Source of the DNA: Thermaerobacter sp. FW80
GTDB lineage: Bacteria; Bacillota; Sulfobacillia; Thermaerobacterales; Thermaerobacteraceae
NCBI RefSeq assembly: GCF_004634385.1
Contig: NZ_CP037895.1
Coordinates: 2,517,245 to 2,581,244 of the forward strand
Reading direction: 5' to 3'
Length of the DNA: 64,000 nucleotides
The notes beneath the pieces are model-generated. The model was given only the letters and a program-made list of their open reading frames with translations. It was not told where the DNA came from and searched no databases. Below, piece by piece: positions 33,434 to 41,572 of the stretch. Numbering within the stretch: the first letter of the stretch is position 1; every line of letters begins with the position of its first letter. The position numbers and the translations under genes were made by a program.

Positions 33434-34582
33434 CTAGGTGGTGGCGGCGCGGTCCGCCAGGTCCTGGAGCGTGTCGGCCACCAGCGACCGCACCAGCTCC
33501 ACCTTGAACCCGCTTCCGGCCAGCGGCCGGGCCCCTTCCACGGCCCGCTCCCCGGCCTCCCAGGCCGTCGCCCCGTCGAGGGCGCGCCCCCGCAGCCACG
33601 CCTCGACGGCCTCGAGGCGCCAGGGCTTCAGGGCGACGCCGCCCAGCGCCAGCCGCACCGCCCCCACCACGGGACCCGGCGCCCAACGGACCCAGGCCGC
33701 GAGGCTGACCAGCGCGAACTGCCACACCCGCCGATCCATGACCTTGCGGTACGTGCTGGCGGAGGGCTCGGCAAGCGGTGGCAGGACCACGGCCGTCACC
33801 AACTCGTCGGGCCGGCGGACGGTCAGACCCGGCGCCCCGGCCGTCGGCCGGCCGGTGAAGTAGGCGTCCACCGGCACGCGGCGCCGCGTGATGCGCCCCG
33901 CTTCCCACCGGGCCAGCTCTACCTCCGCCCCCAGCGCCGTCAGGGCGACGGCGGGATCCGAGGGATGGACGGCCCCGCAGCCCTCCCCGGGCTCCCCCGG
34001 GCCGTGGCCGAAGATGGCCTGGAAGGGCGCCGCCGCCTCGGGCGCCGCGCAGCTGCAGTGGTCGTCGCCGGCGAAGCGGCACGGCAACCCGCTGCGGTAG
34101 TGCCAGCAGCGCACCCGCTGCTCGAGGTTGCCGCCCAAGGTCGCCCGGTTGCGCAGGGCCGGCGTCGCCGAGGCCGCCGCGGCTTCCGCCAGCGCCTGGT
34201 ACGCGGGCGGCAGGGCGCCGGCGCGCGCCAGCTCCGAGAGGGTGACCAGGGCGCCGATGCGCCACCCGCCTTCGGCGTCCGGCCCCATGCCCTGGAGGGC
34301 GTCGAGGCGCCCGATGTCCAGCAGGCGCGACGGCTGGCGCCGATGCCGTCGCCACAGGGTCAGGAGGTCGGTGCCGCCCGCCAGCACCACGGGCCGCGGG
34401 TCCCCCGTCGCCGCCGGACCCCCGGCGAGGACGGCCAGGGCCTCCTCCAGGGTTCGCGCCCGCGCGTAGGCCGGGGCGCCGGCGGCCGTCCCCGACGGAT
34501 CCGGCGGGACGCCGTGCTCGGCAGCCGCCATCCGGTCCGCCTCCGTGGCCGTCCCCCGCTCCGAGCCCCGTTCCGCCCTCAC
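33434..34582 (-). CDS. molybdenum hydroxylase FAD subunit with extra Fe-S cysteines (PaoB-like)
   Basis: About 382 residues of the CoxM/XdhB/PaoB FAD-binding family: VVLAGGTDLLTLWR near 65 and RNRATLGGNLEQR near 140 bind FAD. Directly after comes a cysteine-rich insertion (C-x9-C-x8-C-x-C, about 155-176) like the 4Fe-4S loop of E. coli PaoB and 4-hydroxybenzoyl-CoA reductase. The GTG start overlaps the stop of the molybdenum subunit by 4 bases. The enzyme's substrate is unknown. Confidence 0.88.
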   Translation of the reverse strand: MRAERGSERGTATEADRMAAAEHGVPPDPSGTAAGAPAYARARTLEEALAVLAGGPAATGDPRPVVLAGGTDLLTLWRRHRRQPSRLLDIGRLDALQGMGPDAEGGWRIGALVTLSELARAGALPPAYQALAEAAAASATPALRNRATLGGNLEQRVRCWHYRSGLPCRFAGDDHCSCAAPEAAAPFQAIFGHGPGEPGEGCGAVHPSDPAVALTALGAEVELARWEAGRITRRRVPVDAYFTGRPTAGAPGLTVRRPDELVTAVVLPPLAEPSASTYRKVMDRRVWQFALVSLAAWVRWAPGPVVGAVRLALGGVALKPWRLEAVEAWLRGRALDGATAWEAGERAVEGARPLAGSGFKVELVRSLVADTLQDLADRAATT

Positions 34583-37128
34583 CGGCCCTCACCTCCTCCA
34601 GCCGCGCCGCCGTCCGCCGGGCGTCGGGGTCGCCGGCGCCCGTCGGGCCCGATGCCGTGCCGCCGGAGCAGCTCCAGCACCCGCGCCCGGGTCAGGGGCA
34701 GCTCCCGTACGGGGATGCCCGTCGCGTGGTAGAAGGCGTTGGCGATGGCCGCCGCCGTGGGGATGATGGGCGGCTCGCCCGCCCCCTTGACGCCCAGGTT
34801 GTTGCCGTGGGGGTCGGGGTCGTCGGTGAAGGCCACGTGCAGCCGCGGGACGTCGGCCACGGTGGGCACCCGGTAGTTCTCCAGGTTCGCGTTGAGCACC
34901 CGGCCGCTGACGGGGTCGACGACCCGCTCCTCGAACAGGGCGAAGCCCAGGCCCTGGATCATGCCGCCCTCCATCTGGGCCGTGGCCGTCAGGGGGTTGA
35001 CCACCCGCCCGATGTCGTGGACCGCCCACAGGTCCAGGACCCGCACCTCGCCGGTGGCGGGGTCCACCTCGATCTCGGCGAACTGGGCGCCAAAGGTGTG
35101 GATGGCGTACTCGTCGGGGTTGGGACCGCGGCTCCCCCGGCCGGTGATCACGTACTGCCCCAGGGTCTTGCCGAGCTCCGCCAGGTCGACGCCGCGGTCC
35201 GGGGCGCCCCGGACCTGCACCCGTCCCGGAGGAACCAGCTCCAGGTCGCGGGGGTCGGCCTCCAGCAGCCCCGCCGCCAGCTCCACGACCTGCCGCGCCG
35301 CGTCGGCGGCCGCGGAGCGCACCGCCGGGCCCACGGACGGCACCGTCATGCTGCCGGCACTGATGGGCGCGTAGGGCCCGCCGTCGGTGTCGCCCAGGAG
35401 CACCCGCACCCGCTCGATGGGCACGCCCAGCTCCTCGGCGGCGATCTGCGCCAGCACCGTGCGGGTGCCGGTGCCGATGTCCTGGCTGGCCGTCACCACG
35501 GTGACCGTGCCGTCGGGGTGGATGCGCACCTCCGCCTGGGCCGGCGGCCCGCCGGCGCCGCCCCAGATCTGGCTGGCCATGCCGATGCCGCGCAGCTTCG
35601 GCCGGCGGGCTCCCGCGCGGACCGAAGCCGCCGCCGGCGTCGCGGGGCCGCCCCCTGCGAACCCGTCGGCCCGCTCGCCCCGGTCCGGCGCGGCGAGCGC
35701 CCTGCCCGCCGCGGCCGCGCCGGCGCCGCCACGCCCCGGCCCCGGGGCCGGTTCGTCCGCCCCGGCCCCCTCCGCCGCCGAGGGCCCCAGCGGCGGCCGG
35801 CGCCGCTTCGCCTCCCAGCCCGCCATGGCCGCGCCCAGGGCGTACGCCTTCCGCAGCCCCTTGGAGGAGTAGGGCCGACCGCTGGTGGGGTCGACGTCGG
35901 TGTGGTTCCGCAGGCGCAGCTCGATGGGATCCAGCTCGAGGCGCCGGGCCAGCTCGTCCATCAGCACCTCCAGGGCCACGGTGCCCTCCACGTACCCGGG
36001 GGCGCGGAAGGCCGACGCCGGCCCCGTGTTGGTGTGGACGGGCACCTCCACGGTGCGCACGTTGGGGCAGGCATACAGCTGCCGGGCCGGCCCGCCGATG
36101 GCCCCCGGGCTGCCCATCACCCCCACCGCCGCGTAGGCCTCCAGGTCGATGGCCACCAGCCGGCCGTCGGCGGTGGCGCCCAGCTTGAGGCGCTGCAGGG
36201 TGCTGTGGCGGTTGCCCGCCGCCAGGTTCTCCTCCTCGCGGTCCAGCACGCACCGCACCGGCCGGCCCAGCTGGCGGCTGAGGATGCCGGCCAGCACCGT
36301 GTACTTGTGCAAGCCGTTCTTGCTGCCGAACCCGCCGCCCATGTGCTCCTTGACCACCCGCACCCGGTGGACGGGCAGGCCGAACAGCTGGGCGAACCGG
36401 TCCCGCACCCCGAAGATGTGCTGGGTCGAGTCGTAGATGGTCACCTTGTCGGGCTGCCAGTCCACCACGCTGCCATGGGTCTCCATGCAGTTGTGCAGCT
36501 GCACCGGGGTGCGGAAGGTGCCCTCGACCACCACCGCCGCCTGGCGCAGGCCGGCCTCCACGTCGCCGCGGCTGTAGCGAGCCGCGCGGTCCCAGCGCAC
36601 GTTGCCCTGCGGACGAACCGGCGGCGCGTCGGGCTTCATCGCCTCCTCCAGGCCGACCACGAAGGGCAGCGGATCGTACTCCACCTCGAGGGCCGCCGCC
36701 GCGGCGCGGGCCGTGGCCAGGTCCCGGGCCGCCACCACCGCCACCTCGTCGCCGTGGTACCGCACCACCGGGTTGAGGACGCGGTCGCCCTCCCGGCCCC
36801 ACGGGATGGGCGGGCAGTTCTCGTGGGTCAGCACCGCCAGCACCCCGGGGATGGCCAGGGCGCGCTCCGTGCGGATGGCGCGGATGCGGGCGTGGGGGTA
36901 GGGGCTGCGCACGATCACCGCGTGGACCATGCCGGGCAGGCGCACGTCGTGGGTGTAGCGCGCCCGTCCCGTCACCTTCTCCCAGGCGTCGACCCGGGTC
37001 TGGGGCCGGCCGACGTAGCGCAGCGCGGCCCCATCGGGCAGGGGGCCGGCGGGATCGTCTTCCACCACGACGTACCGCTCCTGGACCCGGCCCTCGAACT
37101 CGAACCGGGTCTTAACGAGCCGGGGCAC
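34579..37128 (-). CDS. molybdenum hydroxylase catalytic subunit (aldehyde oxidoreductase/xanthine dehydrogenase family)
   Basis: About 849 residues. The Mo-pterin subunit shows GRARYTHDVRLPGMVHA near 50, the GGGFGSKNG cofactor loop, the SAFRAPG segment and, near the C-terminus, KGAGEPPIIPTAAAIANA with the catalytic Glu. The AYXCSFR loop of carbon monoxide dehydrogenase is not seen, so an aldehyde or N-heterocycle substrate is more likely. About 80 residues of Gly/Ala/Pro-rich sequence are inserted near 440-520. The GTG start overlaps the 2Fe-2S gene by 17 bases; an earlier start is possible. Confidence 0.92.
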   Translation of the reverse strand: MPRLVKTRFEFEGRVQERYVVVEDDPAGPLPDGAALRYVGRPQTRVDAWEKVTGRARYTHDVRLPGMVHAVIVRSPYPHARIRAIRTERALAIPGVLAVLTHENCPPIPWGREGDRVLNPVVRYHGDEVAVVAARDLATARAAAAALEVEYDPLPFVVGLEEAMKPDAPPVRPQGNVRWDRAARYSRGDVEAGLRQAAVVVEGTFRTPVQLHNCMETHGSVVDWQPDKVTIYDSTQHIFGVRDRFAQLFGLPVHRVRVVKEHMGGGFGSKNGLHKYTVLAGILSRQLGRPVRCVLDREEENLAAGNRHSTLQRLKLGATADGRLVAIDLEAYAAVGVMGSPGAIGGPARQLYACPNVRTVEVPVHTNTGPASAFRAPGYVEGTVALEVLMDELARRLELDPIELRLRNHTDVDPTSGRPYSSKGLRKAYALGAAMAGWEAKRRRPPLGPSAAEGAGADEPAPGPGRGGAGAAAAGRALAAPDRGERADGFAGGGPATPAAASVRAGARRPKLRGIGMASQIWGGAGGPPAQAEVRIHPDGTVTVVTASQDIGTGTRTVLAQIAAEELGVPIERVRVLLGDTDGGPYAPISAGSMTVPSVGPAVRSAAADAARQVVELAAGLLEADPRDLELVPPGRVQVRGAPDRGVDLAELGKTLGQYVITGRGSRGPNPDEYAIHTFGAQFAEIEVDPATGEVRVLDLWAVHDIGRVVNPLTATAQMEGGMIQGLGFALFEERVVDPVSGRVLNANLENYRVPTVADVPRLHVAFTDDPDPHGNNLGVKGAGEPPIIPTAAAIANAFYHATGIPVRELPLTRARVLELLRRHGIGPDGRRRPRRPADGGAAGGGEGR

Positions 37129-37822
37129 CCCGCGTCCCCCCTTCCCCGTCGGCGGCGCCGTCCGCGGAGCCGTCGTCCCCGCGGCGGCTCGCCGCCGTCT
37201 CCGCCGCACCCGCCATCGCCGCCGCCCGGAGGGCCGCCTTGACGATGCGCGGGTAGGCGCCGCAGCGGCACAGGTTGCCCGCCAGGGCGGCCCGCACCTG
37301 CTCGGGGGTCGGCCGGGGCTCCCGGTCCAGCAGCGCCTTGACCGCCATGATCTGGCCCGGCGTGCAGAAGCCGCACTGCAGGGCGTCCTCGGCGACGAAT
37401 GCCTCCTGCACGGGGTGGAGCCGGTCCCCCCGCGCCAGTCCCTCCACCGTCTCGACCCGCCCGCCGTCGCAGGCCGCCGCCAGCACGAGACAGCTGTAGA
37501 CCAGCGCTCCGTCGAGGATCACGCTGCAGGCGCCGCAGTTGCCCTCCTCGCAGCCGATCTTGGTCCCGGTCAGCCCCAGGCGGTCCCGGAGGAACGTGGC
37601 CAGGGTCTCCGTGGCGGGCACCTCGCCCACCCAGGTCTCGCCGTTGACCTCGAGCCGGACCGCCACCGACGGGTGGAAGGCCGTCGCCGGCAGCCCCGGC
37701 GCAGCGACCTGGGGGCTGCGGCCGCCCTCCCCCCGCGGTGCCCCGCCTTCCGCCCCCGGTCCATCGGGCCGGCCGTCGATCCGTCGCTCCTCGTCGCGCA
37801 ACGTAGGCCATCGCCTCCCCAT
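37112..37822 (-). CDS. molybdenum hydroxylase 2Fe-2S subunit
   Basis: The two-cluster electron-transfer subunit. The plant-ferredoxin type cluster site is C-x4-C-x2-C (GCEEGNCGACSVILDG) with a fourth Cys in SCLVLAAACDG, and the second cluster site is CGFCTPGQ...NLCRCGAYPRI. The core runs from about residue 60 to 215; the N-terminal 60 and C-terminal 25 residues are Gly/Arg/Ala-rich and the start is uncertain (ATG at 37822 chosen). It is the first gene of the three-subunit operon. Confidence 0.92.
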   Translation of the reverse strand: MGRRWPTLRDEERRIDGRPDGPGAEGGAPRGEGGRSPQVAAPGLPATAFHPSVAVRLEVNGETWVGEVPATETLATFLRDRLGLTGTKIGCEEGNCGACSVILDGALVYSCLVLAAACDGGRVETVEGLARGDRLHPVQEAFVAEDALQCGFCTPGQIMAVKALLDREPRPTPEQVRAALAGNLCRCGAYPRIVKAALRAAAMAGAAETAASRRGDDGSADGAADGEGGTRGAPAR

Positions 37823-38171
37823 CGCCGCCGTCCCATCCCCCGCGCCGGCCGTCGGTCCCGGCCCCGGTCGGCGGCTCGCGACCCTGCGGCGGGGCGGCCC
37901 GCCCGCCGCGACGCCTGGGGCGGGCGGCGCATCGCGGGCCGGGCCCTTGCCCTCTGCCCCGGGCCGCCTGCCGGCCCGCCGCCCCGCGGCGCGCCGCCGC
38001 GACGCGCGCCTTCTTCCCCGCGGGCCTGCACCGACACCTCGGGCGCGGACGCAATCGGCATCAATCGCCCGCAGCGCCGCCACCTCGGCGTCCCCTAGAG
38101 GATGCCCGGCCCGCCGGGCGGCCTCGGCCCGCCCCGCGGGCCGCCGCCGCCTACCGCCCCTGCGCCGCCGG
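37823..38171. other. gene-free stretch
   Basis: About 350 bases between the 2Fe-2S gene and the crotonase gene. Only Arg/Pro/Gly-rich composition ORFs are found. The promoter of the molybdenum hydroxylase operon should lie here but is not recognisable. Confidence 0.4.
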
Positions 38172-38972
38172 CTACCGCCCCTTCCACTGGGGGGCGCGCT
38201 TCTCCAGGAAGGCCTGCATGCCCTCCTTCTGGTCCTCCGTCGCGAAGAGGCTGTAGAACAGCCGCCGCTCGAACTCCAGCCCGGCGCCCAGGGGCGTCTC
38301 GTAGGCCTGCAGCACGGCCGCCTTGGCCATCTGCACGGCCAGGGGCGGCATCCCGGCGATGGCGTGGGCCAGGCGCAGGGCCTCGGGCAGGCACTGCTCG
38401 TCGGGCACCACCTTGGTCACCAGACCCCAGGCCTCCGCCTCCCGGGCCGGGATCATGCGTCCCGTGAGGATGGCCTCCATCGCCTTGTACTTGCCCGCCA
38501 CCCGCGTCAGCCGCTGGGTGCCCCCGGCGCCCGGCATCACGCCGATCTTGATCTCCGGCTGGCCGAACTGGGCCGACTCGCCCGCCACGATGAGGTCGCA
38601 GCCCATGGCCAGCTCGAACCCGCCGCCCAGGCAGTAGCCCTGGACCGCGGCGATGACGGGCTTGCGGATGCGCCAGAGGCGTTGCCAGGTCCCCAGCAGG
38701 TCGTCGCCCGTCACCTCCGCCAGGCCCTTGTCCGCCATCTCGGCGATGTCGGCGCCGGCGGCGAAGGCGCGCTCGTTGCCCGTCAGCACCATGCAGCGGA
38801 TGGCGGGATCGCGGTCGAAGGCGCTCAGGGCGTCGGCCAGCTCCTCGATCAGCGCCCGGCACAGGGCGTTCAGCACCTTCGGCCGGTTGAGCCGGACGAT
38901 CCCCACCGGCCCGTCGGTCTCGACCACGAGGTATCCGTCGCCCGAGCTCCGCCCATCCCCCGTCGCGGTCAA
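38172..38972 (-). CDS. enoyl-CoA hydratase/isomerase (crotonase family)
   Basis: About 266 residues. The crotonase fold is shown by the oxyanion-hole segments ERAFAAGADIAEM (about 66) and YCLGGGFELAMGCDLI (about 110), and both hydratase glutamates are present (FELAM and QPEIKIG). This supports hydration of 2-enoyl-CoA in fatty-acid or related degradation. The start is a TTG following GGAGGTGAG. It is transcribed alone, upstream of the molybdenum hydroxylase genes on the same strand. Confidence 0.9.
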   Translation of the reverse strand: MTATGDGRSSGDGYLVVETDGPVGIVRLNRPKVLNALCRALIEELADALSAFDRDPAIRCMVLTGNERAFAAGADIAEMADKGLAEVTGDDLLGTWQRLWRIRKPVIAAVQGYCLGGGFELAMGCDLIVAGESAQFGQPEIKIGVMPGAGGTQRLTRVAGKYKAMEAILTGRMIPAREAEAWGLVTKVVPDEQCLPEALRLAHAIAGMPPLAVQMAKAAVLQAYETPLGAGLEFERRLFYSLFATEDQKEGMQAFLEKRAPQWKGR

Positions 38973-39085: not shown

Positions 39086-39225
39086 GAGCAAGGCGCCTTA
39101 CGCCGGGGCTCCCACGCCCTCCAGCGGCGTCCGGCGCGCCCGGTCGGCCGGCGTCCCTCGGCGCGGGCCGCCGGAGGTCGCGGCCAAGGCGCGCCCCGTC
39201 CCACCCATGCGGGGAGGAACGACCC

Positions 39226-41190
39226 GTGAGCACCGGCAAGCGCGAGCGCAACGCACCAGCAAACCCTGCACCGGGCGCCGCCGGCCTCCCGCCGGAGGCG
39301 ACGTCCGATGGCGCCGCGCCCGGTGGGGCCCCCTTCCTCGAGGCCCTCTTCGGGGAGGTCGGGACGCGGGCCGGTTCGACCGACGACGGCGCGGGTGCCC
39401 CGGGCACGCCGTCCACCGGGACCGCCGCGGCCGGCGCCGCCCGCCGCCCGACGATGCCACCGGGGACGGGCCCGCGGGCACCGTGGACCTTCCTCCCCCG
39501 CACCTGGCTCGAGCCCGCAGCCGGCCCGTCGAGCCCCTGGCGCATCGAGGAGGGTCTGTCGCCGCGGCCCCTGACGCCCTACTCCGCCGCCCTGTGGCAG
39601 GAGACGCTGCCCACGCTCACCGCCCGCATCAGCCGGGACCTCTCCCTGCCCAGCGACGGTGTCGACCTAGCCGTGGACGAACACGGCCGGCTGCTCGGCC
39701 GCCCGCACCCGGTGGGCCGTGCACCGGGGGTCTTGACCTGGCGGGCGGCCCGCCACGGCTGGACGGCGGGCCGCCAGGCGGCAACGCTGGTGCGCTGGTG
39801 GGATGAGGCCGGCCCCCGCACCCTGCTGGCCGACGCTGGCGAGCTGCGGCTGCGGGTGATCCCCCTCGAGCGCCAGGACCCCGGCGATCCCGCGACTGCC
39901 CGGGAGTGGCGGCGGGTGCTGGAACGCTGCCGGGAGATCTGGCTGACCCACCTCGACCGCATGCTGCGGCTGGAAGCGTTGGCCACCTTGAGTTTCTGGC
40001 AGCTGGAGGCGTTGCTTGACGCCTTCCGCCTGCCGGGGTCGCCGCGGGCCGCCGACCTGGTCCCCGTGCCGGGGGTGGTCGCCGAGATCCCCCAGCGCCT
40101 CTGGCACCTGGCCGCCCGCGGGCGGGAAGACCCGGCGGTGACCGCCGTCTTCACGGAGCCTCCCTATCATTCGCGCCTCTCCCGCCTCGCCGCCGGGGTC
40201 CGGCCCGGGCTCGACCGCTCGGTCGCCGCGTCCCCGACGCAGGCGGCGCACCCTGCGCCCTTCTTCGCGCTCTGGCACCAGTTCCTCGAGCGTTACGGCT
40301 ATGTGGCCTGGCCGGCCGCCGAGCTGGCGGCGCCGACCTGGGCCGAGGACCCCGAGCCGGTACTGGCCCTGCTGGCCCGGTTCTTCCACGACCGCCGCCT
40401 CAGCCCCATCGCCGACGAGATCAACGCCCGCAGGCGCCAGCAGGCCCTCGAGGCGACCATCGCCCGCCACCTCGCCCGCCGCCCGGTGGACCGCGGGCGC
40501 ATCGCGGAGACGCGACGGCTGGCCGAGGTCACCGTCCGGGTGGCCGCGGAGATGGGCTATCACATGCTGGTCTTGCGCTCGTGGTGGCGCCGGGCGGTGC
40601 TGGGGGCCGGTCGCGCCCTGGCCGCCCGGGGCCTGTTGGAGGAACCGGCCGCCGTGTGGCGGCTGACGCCGCACGAACTGGAGGCTGCGCTGGCGGCCGC
40701 CGGGACTCGGGGGGCGCCAGGCAGAGGGCCGGGCGGCGGCCCCGACGATCCGCCCTCCGCCGCCTTCGGAGCCGACGGGATCGAACACGGCCCCACTCAC
40801 GGGGCCAACGCCGACTCGCCCGCCGGCGGCGTCGACGCCGCCGGCGGGACCCGGCAGGGGTCGACGGGCGCGGGCGGCCGCTCGCCCGTCGACGGCCCAG
40901 GGGGCCGGCGCGGCGCCGAGGGCGACGAACCGGACGACGCGCTCCGGGAGCAGGCCCGGCGGCGGGCCAATGCGATCTTTCGCTATGCCGGCATCGCGTA
41001 CTTCGCGCTGCTGGCCCTGATCCCGGTGATCATGGCTCGCCAGGGCGTACTCTGGATCGGTCTCGTGGAGATGGCACGGCTGCTGGTGGAGGTCGTGCTG
41101 ATCTTCGCGCCGGTGGCGGCGGTGGCAGCGGCGGTCCTCCTGGGCCGGCGGCGCAGGAGCGGCCGCGGGGACCGCAACACCAAGGCATGA
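39226..41190 (+). CDS. membrane-anchored protein related to the central region of PEP synthase-like enzymes
   Basis: About 654 residues from a GTG after GGGGAGGA. The first 110 residues are Gly/Ala/Pro-rich. Residues 115-490 resemble the region between the ATP-grasp and phosphohistidine domains of PEP-utilising enzymes such as rifampin phosphotransferase: PLTPYSAALWQE, FLERYGYVAWPAAELAAPTW, and ALAARGLLEEPAAVWRLTPHEL. Neither the ATP-grasp nor the swivelling His domain is encoded. After a second Gly/Asp-rich linker two membrane helices (about 585-605 and 620-645) end the protein. The function is unknown; the family assignment is by visible pattern. Confidence 0.6.
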   Translation: MSTGKRERNAPANPAPGAAGLPPEATSDGAAPGGAPFLEALFGEVGTRAGSTDDGAGAPGTPSTGTAAAGAARRPTMPPGTGPRAPWTFLPRTWLEPAAGPSSPWRIEEGLSPRPLTPYSAALWQETLPTLTARISRDLSLPSDGVDLAVDEHGRLLGRPHPVGRAPGVLTWRAARHGWTAGRQAATLVRWWDEAGPRTLLADAGELRLRVIPLERQDPGDPATAREWRRVLERCREIWLTHLDRMLRLEALATLSFWQLEALLDAFRLPGSPRAADLVPVPGVVAEIPQRLWHLAARGREDPAVTAVFTEPPYHSRLSRLAAGVRPGLDRSVAASPTQAAHPAPFFALWHQFLERYGYVAWPAAELAAPTWAEDPEPVLALLARFFHDRRLSPIADEINARRRQQALEATIARHLARRPVDRGRIAETRRLAEVTVRVAAEMGYHMLVLRSWWRRAVLGAGRALAARGLLEEPAAVWRLTPHELEAALAAAGTRGAPGRGPGGGPDDPPSAAFGADGIEHGPTHGANADSPAGGVDAAGGTRQGSTGAGGRSPVDGPGGRRGAEGDEPDDALREQARRRANAIFRYAGIAYFALLALIPVIMARQGVLWIGLVEMARLLVEVVLIFAPVAAVAAAVLLGRRRRSGRGDRNTKA

Positions 41191-41227: not shown

Positions 41228-41572
41228 TCACCGCGGCGCCAGGTGCCCGCTCCGCTCGAGGCCCGCCCGCACCAGGTGGGCCAGGCTCTCTTCCTCCAGC
41301 CGGCCGATCATCTGCTCCAGGGTCGGCCCGGCGCACGCCCAGTTGTCCTTGGCGGAGTCGTAGCAGTACAAGAGCCAGCCCTCGGGGCAGTGGTAGATCT
41401 CCACCCGCCCGGGCCGGGTGAAGGGTTCGATCCGCGCCACCAGGTCGCCGGTGAAGCGCAGGCGATCCCCCAGCGCGGACACGTCGGGCGCCACCCGCCG
41501 CACCTCCGCGACCACCGTCGCCGATGCCGGGTCACGGGCCGGATGGGAGAGCTGCACTTCCTGCGGTTCCAT
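41228..41572 (-). CDS. small hypothetical protein
   Basis: About 114 residues with a clear AAGGAG site before its ATG. The sequence alternates strand- and helix-like stretches (RFTGDLVARIEPF, VEIYHCPEGWLLYCYD) and ends in a helix (LEQMIGRLEEESLAHLVRAG). The gene overlaps the end of the BtuF-like gene by 41 bases, so the two are co-transcribed. It is not recognised; two Cys residues and several aromatic residues are the only distinctive points. Confidence 0.65.
   Translation of the reverse strand: MEPQEVQLSHPARDPASATVVAEVRRVAPDVSALGDRLRFTGDLVARIEPFTRPGRVEIYHCPEGWLLYCYDSAKDNWACAGPTLEQMIGRLEEESLAHLVRAGLERSGHLAPR

Follow-up and report, generated by a model that had tools for sequence, protein, structure and literature searches.

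RPH-type dikinases form a large superfamily of which most members are uncharacterised; the substrates that their central domain recognises are chemically diverse and include rifamycins, phenols and prodigiosin precursors. In rifampin phosphotransferase (RPH), an ATP-grasp domain (residues 1-314) is followed by the RIF-binding domain (327-754) and a swivel domain (767-865); the relay residues of RPH-Lm form a network around the phosphate, and Ala in place of either Arg666 or Glu667 abolishes the phosphorylation and inactivation of rifampin (PMC4844700). Genuine PEP synthase has a second substrate domain of a different fold (PMC12167813), and what is annotated in B. subtilis as the PEP synthase "Pps" is in truth an RPH (PMC13099321). 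In the window, by which we mean the whole stretch of 64,000 nucleotides of Thermaerobacter sp. FW80 DNA that was analysed, there is a gene whose product carries a central domain of this kind on its own, with a predicted tether to the membrane. The features of the gene are the following:

39211..39218, forward strand: Shine-Dalgarno sequence of the orphan-domain gene (GGGGAGGA), read off the sequence
39226..41190, forward strand: gene for a putative orphan membrane-tethered RIF-binding-type domain, GTG start, 654 aa, with orthologues in four further genomes
39226..39468, forward strand: residues 1-81, N-terminus rich in Ala, Gly, Pro and Thr, predicted to be disordered, poorly conserved (composition, orthologue alignment)
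39469..40704, forward strand: residues 82-493, RIF-binding-type substrate domain, equivalent to about 324-719 of RPH-Lm (hhalign, AlphaFold2, VIA)
40543..40557, forward strand: residues 440-444, AAEMG, at the site of the catalytic Arg-Glu-x-x-Lys of RPH (R666, E667, K670), occupied in the orphan by Ala, Ala and Gly (aligned to RPH-Lm and 41 homologues)
40705..40971, forward strand: residues 494-582, linker rich in Gly, Ala and Asp, nearly neutral (composition, dN/dS 0.54-0.96)
40972..41151, forward strand: residues 583-642, candidate two-helix membrane hairpin with Arg on both flanks, predicted N-in/C-in (hydrophobicity, dN/dS)

The GTG start of the ORF at 39226-41190 is well supported by the GGAGGA Shine-Dalgarno sequence upstream of it, and in the two congeners compared GGAGGAACGA-CCC-GTG is the most conserved section of the gene's 5' region. 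The gene is solitary, lying between the divergent enoyl-CoA hydratase gene (38172-38972, reverse strand) and a convergent gene for a 114-aa protein (41228-41572, reverse strand), and its location is unchanged in each of the five genomes that carry it. Three congeners share the order of cox-type genes, enoyl-CoA hydratase, orphan, 114-aa gene, Peripla_BP_2 protein, HD protein and MoaA, and the order around the orphan domain is the same in the family outgroup on a 9.6-kb contig, which is short and yielded no coxM. The 114-aa protein is itself without any Pfam match and is found at this site with 73-88% identity in the five genomes; its gene adjoins that of the Peripla_BP_2 protein, which has no obvious signal peptide. 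A cluster for a molybdenum hydroxylase of the cox/xanthine-dehydrogenase type, with medium, large and small subunits, extends over 33434-38083 on the reverse strand; next to it, on the other strand, is a crotonase gene, and moaA is close by.

A preliminary description of this DNA had seen in residues about 115-490 the patterns of the middle region of PEP-utilising enzymes, and residues ~100-493 do match the central domain of the RPH-type dikinases. By itself, the window protein gave a weak match in NCBIfam (E 2.6e-4) to the central region of the PRK06241/"PEP synthase" and RPH families, and the outgroup orthologue matched clearly (E 2e-8 for the PRK06241 family and 1.3e-6 for RIF_Ptrans_rph). 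The profile-profile comparison that had been suggested as a check yielded, against a profile of 15 dikinases of the same class, an hhalign probability of 99.6% with E 3.5e-24 over 362 columns, and when the profile of the five orthologues was run against the whole PDB, RPH was the sole match (5fbs, 5hv1, 5hv2; E 0.006). AlphaFold2 from the five orthologues alone gave a model with pLDDT 67, for which Foldseek returned RPH at E 0.55 and VIA ranked RPH at the top with Z 10.4. After adding the 15 dikinase domains, pLDDT rose to 90.6 and pTM to 0.89, a gain for which the added homologues may account in part; RPH is also what comes out of the profile comparison and of the model from orthologues alone. 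With the latter of the two models Foldseek found RPH at E 5.8e-6, and VIA superimposed 346 of 412 residues on RPH 5hv3 at 4.0 A with Z 22.9, model residues 17-412 falling on RPH 324-719; the best-scoring unrelated chain reached Z 7.6. The fold lists also contained chains of alpha-pore-forming toxins and spectrin repeats, which were rejected as long-helix matches, with Z under 8 and far below RPH.

The apex, arm1 and arm2 of the RIF-binding domain can be followed in the orphan over its length, apart from ~35 residues at the end of the RPH domain that have no counterpart. The superfamily landmarks FLxRYG, W-x-E-x-P and R...GR-LA-RG are present; among 20 sequences, G277, W291, P295 and R374 (core numbering) are invariant and E293, G381, G388 and L390 nearly so. 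Profiles and models thus assign the core firmly to the substrate-binding (RIF-binding) domain of the RPH/HpeH type, and the structure prediction did not show the unrelated fold by which the first reading would have been refuted. Of the scaffold originally named, the rifampin phosphotransferase half stands, extended to the two-component phenol kinases, and the PEP synthase half falls, the second substrate domain of the genuine enzyme having another fold (PMC12167813); the "PEP synthase" labels on the matches of the orphan are probably RPH misannotations likewise. The Pfam copy that we searched holds no model for the central domain, not even in a full-length dikinase, so that stand-alone copies go unnoticed.

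As had been proposed from the first reading, both catalytic ends are missing: Pfam detected neither a PPDK_N (ATP-grasp) nor a PEP-utilizers (phosphohistidine swivel) domain in the window protein, that is, domains one and three of RPH are absent. Behind the disordered linker (residues 494-582) comes one hydrophobic stretch at residues 583-642, which agrees with the two C-terminal membrane helices described earlier and is present as a two-helix hairpin in three orthologues as well. From hydropathy and charge, the orphan domain would lie at the membrane on its cytoplasmic side. Phage_TAC_6 and Phage_holin_3_6 of Pfam, which scored weakly and under their cut-offs at the domain end and the membrane hairpin, were discarded, and PADLOC and PHROGs gave no significant match for the protein. 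In the outgroup (genome G004, contig C344), the hairpin is an ORF of its own of 136 aa, adjoining the domain ORF (L040:3502-3912, reverse strand); its ATG is located 59 bases past the stop of the domain ORF, in another frame, and is preceded by an AGGGAG-like ribosome site. This two-gene pair may be the unfused ancestral state, which would have been fused to one gene in the genus; either this holds or a frameshift error is the source of the split, the contig being covered about 5.8-fold.

The register of the phosphotransfer relay was taken from a joint alignment of RPH-Lm, 41 homologues and the five orphan orthologues. The position of Arg666 is Ala in all five orphans (Ala440), and that of Glu667, acidic (Glu or Asp) in 37 of the 41 homologues, is Ala or Ser (residue 441). 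Gly occupies the position of Lys670 in each of the five (Gly444), Val or Glu that of Thr523, and Gln336/Gln337 fall in an alignment gap. Glu442, which is conserved, is displaced by one residue from the expected place, in a region that aligns to the Arg-Glu type without gaps; a register shift is conceivable for the Glu, and Arg and Lys are missing either way. As aligned, the relay (Gln336/337, Thr523, Arg666, Glu667, Lys670) is gone in the five orthologues, which is a new finding. Its loss makes a classical transfer unlikely even with a phosphate donor and argues for a non-catalytic use of the scaffold. Several of the positions at which RPH contacts RIF are also gapped or changed, and the cleft of the orphan need not be a working pocket.

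Orthologues occur in all four genomes of the genus that were searched, including that of the window, and in one genome of another genus of the same family, a small group of thermophiles. A search of genome_contigs matched the orphan only on the MAG contig QGUQ01000049.1; no relative was found on viral contigs, and the rest of the class gave only general dikinase homologues and no orthologue. Core identity to the orthologues is 75-78% within the genus and 57-58% within the family. Compared pairwise with the window gene by the Nei-Gojobori method, the orthologues had dN/dS values of 0.25-0.35 for the core, 0.25-0.34 for the hairpin and 0.54-0.90 for the linker; for the closest pair (L003/L004) the values were 0.34, 0.47 and 0.96, respectively. 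The low values indicate that selection keeps both core and hairpin and leaves the linker nearly free; with the identities of the core they rule out chance. The frame is without stop or frameshift in the four genomes of the genus, and an assembly or sequencing artefact is ruled out by the four further genomes. The tree unites the five orphans in a single clade (SH-aLRT 100), whose long stem measures 1.79 changes per column; we are unsure of the place of this stem among domains of the Arg-Glu type and of the phenol-kinase type, and long-branch effects call for caution.

Within a sample of 398 genomes of the phylum, a central domain without swivel is peculiar to the family of the window: the swivel was in the same protein at 26 of 26 fetched loci outside the family, a count that leaves out a 153-aa fragment in G227. 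The seven shortest frames with the domain were likewise accompanied by a swivel, which one of them has in the following frame and the others within their own. An RPH-like enzyme of full length, with HQQMMTDPMKPLG, is encoded in a related family within the order (G005, L078:621-3272), and its 6-kb contig has no flanking gene in common with the orphan locus. Elsewhere in the class (L019, L020, L025, L026, L028, L029 and L032) there are many subunits of two-component dikinases of the HpeH/CreH/PpsA kind, which consist of substrate domain plus swivel with an EDH motif and do not have the ATP-grasp in the same frame.

A further suggestion of the first reading was that a PEP-type enzyme encoded elsewhere might have the protein as its partner or regulator; no RPH-type candidate for that enzyme emerged. 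In the window genome PPDK_N occurs in PPDK alone, PEP-utilizers occurs in PPDK, pyruvate kinase and PTS enzyme I alone (the three named from sequence), and no second central domain of the RIF-binding type was found even at E 1, which leaves no RPH-type partner elsewhere in the genome. Simple gene splitting next door, which the same reading had named as a refuting outcome, is ruled out: swivel and ATP-grasp profiles matched nothing in 5 kb around the window gene or in 9.6-17 kb around the orthologues, none of the five having such a gene near it. The absence of an RPH-type partner, as judged from the proteins encoded in the window genome, is likewise a new finding. The set of PPDK, pyruvate kinase and enzyme I recurs across the family, with PPDK and pyruvate kinase in all five genomes; enzyme I was not detected in the outgroup G004 (91% complete), where the orphan is present.

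We infer that the orphan is probably a non-catalytic, membrane-tethered ("pseudo-") binding module of the RIF-binding type, which would have arisen from an RPH/HpeH ancestor by loss and fusion. An ancestor from this dikinase superfamily would have been reduced to the substrate-binding domain alone, and the lone domain would have lost the residues through which the substrate receives its phosphate from the phosphohistidine. The disordered linker would join the domain to the hairpin and give it a seat at the cytoplasmic face of the membrane, where the cleft, devoid of the swivel that closes one side of it in relatives, may bind a hydrophobic or aromatic small molecule (rifampin and phenols in relatives) or a partner protein. 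The protein could then act as a membrane-held receptor, sink or carrier. More tentatively, and as a plausible rather than a probable course of events, a dikinase substrate domain may have become a membrane-held, non-catalytic receptor or carrier of small molecules, encoded by a two-gene pair first and fused later, with the RIF-binding fold employed outside phosphotransfer.

The main rival to the binding module is a docking scaffold: at the membrane, the orphan would hold the swivel of PPDK, pyruvate kinase or PTS enzyme I and so regulate the enzyme. The swivel of RPH docks onto its RIF-binding domain (PMC4844700), swivel-bearing PPDK and pyruvate kinase accompany the orphan in all five genomes, and in vitro the enzyme I of B. 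subtilis is able to transfer phosphate to rifampin, which makes a contact between PTS and RPH-type systems conceivable (PMC13099321). However, the residues in contact with the phosphohistidine (R666, E667, T523, K670) are lost, PPDK and pyruvate kinase are widespread and have their own substrate domains, and enzyme I was not found in G004, such that we consider docking unlikely. An enzyme of new chemistry, using the cleft without phosphohistidine, for instance as a hydrolase or isomerase, seems to us quite improbable: the five orthologues share many invariant residues, including E442, Y445, H446, W453, W454, R455 and R456 on the former active-site helix, but no catalytic motif is recognisable, and five orthologues from two genera are too few to tell catalytic from structural conservation.

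The lost catalytic residues and the long stem would also be expected of a decaying relic without function, a reading made highly improbable by the conserved Shine-Dalgarno sequence, the intact frame in the genus and the low dN/dS of core and hairpin in comparison with the linker (0.54-0.96). That the orphan is a subunit of an active split dikinase, with ATP-grasp and His domains elsewhere as in HpeHI, CreHI and PpsAB, is nearly refuted; RPH-type dikinases are often split in the class, but there the cut separates the ATP-grasp from a unit of substrate domain and swivel (PMC12167813), and the orphan retains neither swivel nor relay, the genomes of the family have no RPH-type ATP-grasp or swivel, and a missed gene would have to lie in the unassembled part of a window genome that is 98.8% complete. 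An unrelated helical fold that merely resembles the RIF-binding domain could be imagined from the weak matches of the window protein alone and from the poor orthologue-only model, but is scarcely credible given the profile-profile E-value, the wide gap in Z between RPH and the next unrelated chain, and the top rank of RPH even with that poor model.

If the binding-module reading is true, a conserved, catalytically dead and membrane-tethered copy would represent a pseudoenzyme use of the RIF-binding fold, and would offer a simple system to study the binding of the domain apart from catalysis. Among described systems, genuine PEP synthase and PPDK have in common with the orphan only the general theme of multidomain dikinases, and they carry in one protein the PPDK_N and PEP-utilizers domains that the orphan lacks. 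The PRK06241 "PEP synthase" families match it weakly in the central region, and the ligases PigC and RedH of prodigiosin and undecylprodigiosin are touched by a marginal RedH match of the outgroup orthologue; these NCBIfam models are full-length, with about 830-930 positions, and the orphan scores far below their curated cut-offs. In HpeHI, CreHI and PpsAB (PMC12167813), which by hhalign belong to the same superfamily, the substrate domain is also encoded apart from the ATP-grasp; unlike the orphan, proteins of the HpeH type keep the swivel and have a partner of the HpeI type, and the relatives of this kind that we examined have an EDH-x-F motif. PPDK_N, swivel and the Arg666-Glu667/Lys670 residues, by which an active small-molecule dikinase is recognised, are all absent from the orphan. 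The closest system is rifampin phosphotransferase (RPH-Lm, 5FBS/5FBT/5FBU and 5HV1-5HV3; RphT of B. subtilis), with which the orphan shares nearly the whole fold of the central domain; in comparison with it, the ATP-grasp, the swivel and the Arg-Glu-x-x-Lys relay are gone, and a linker and a predicted membrane hairpin have been added.
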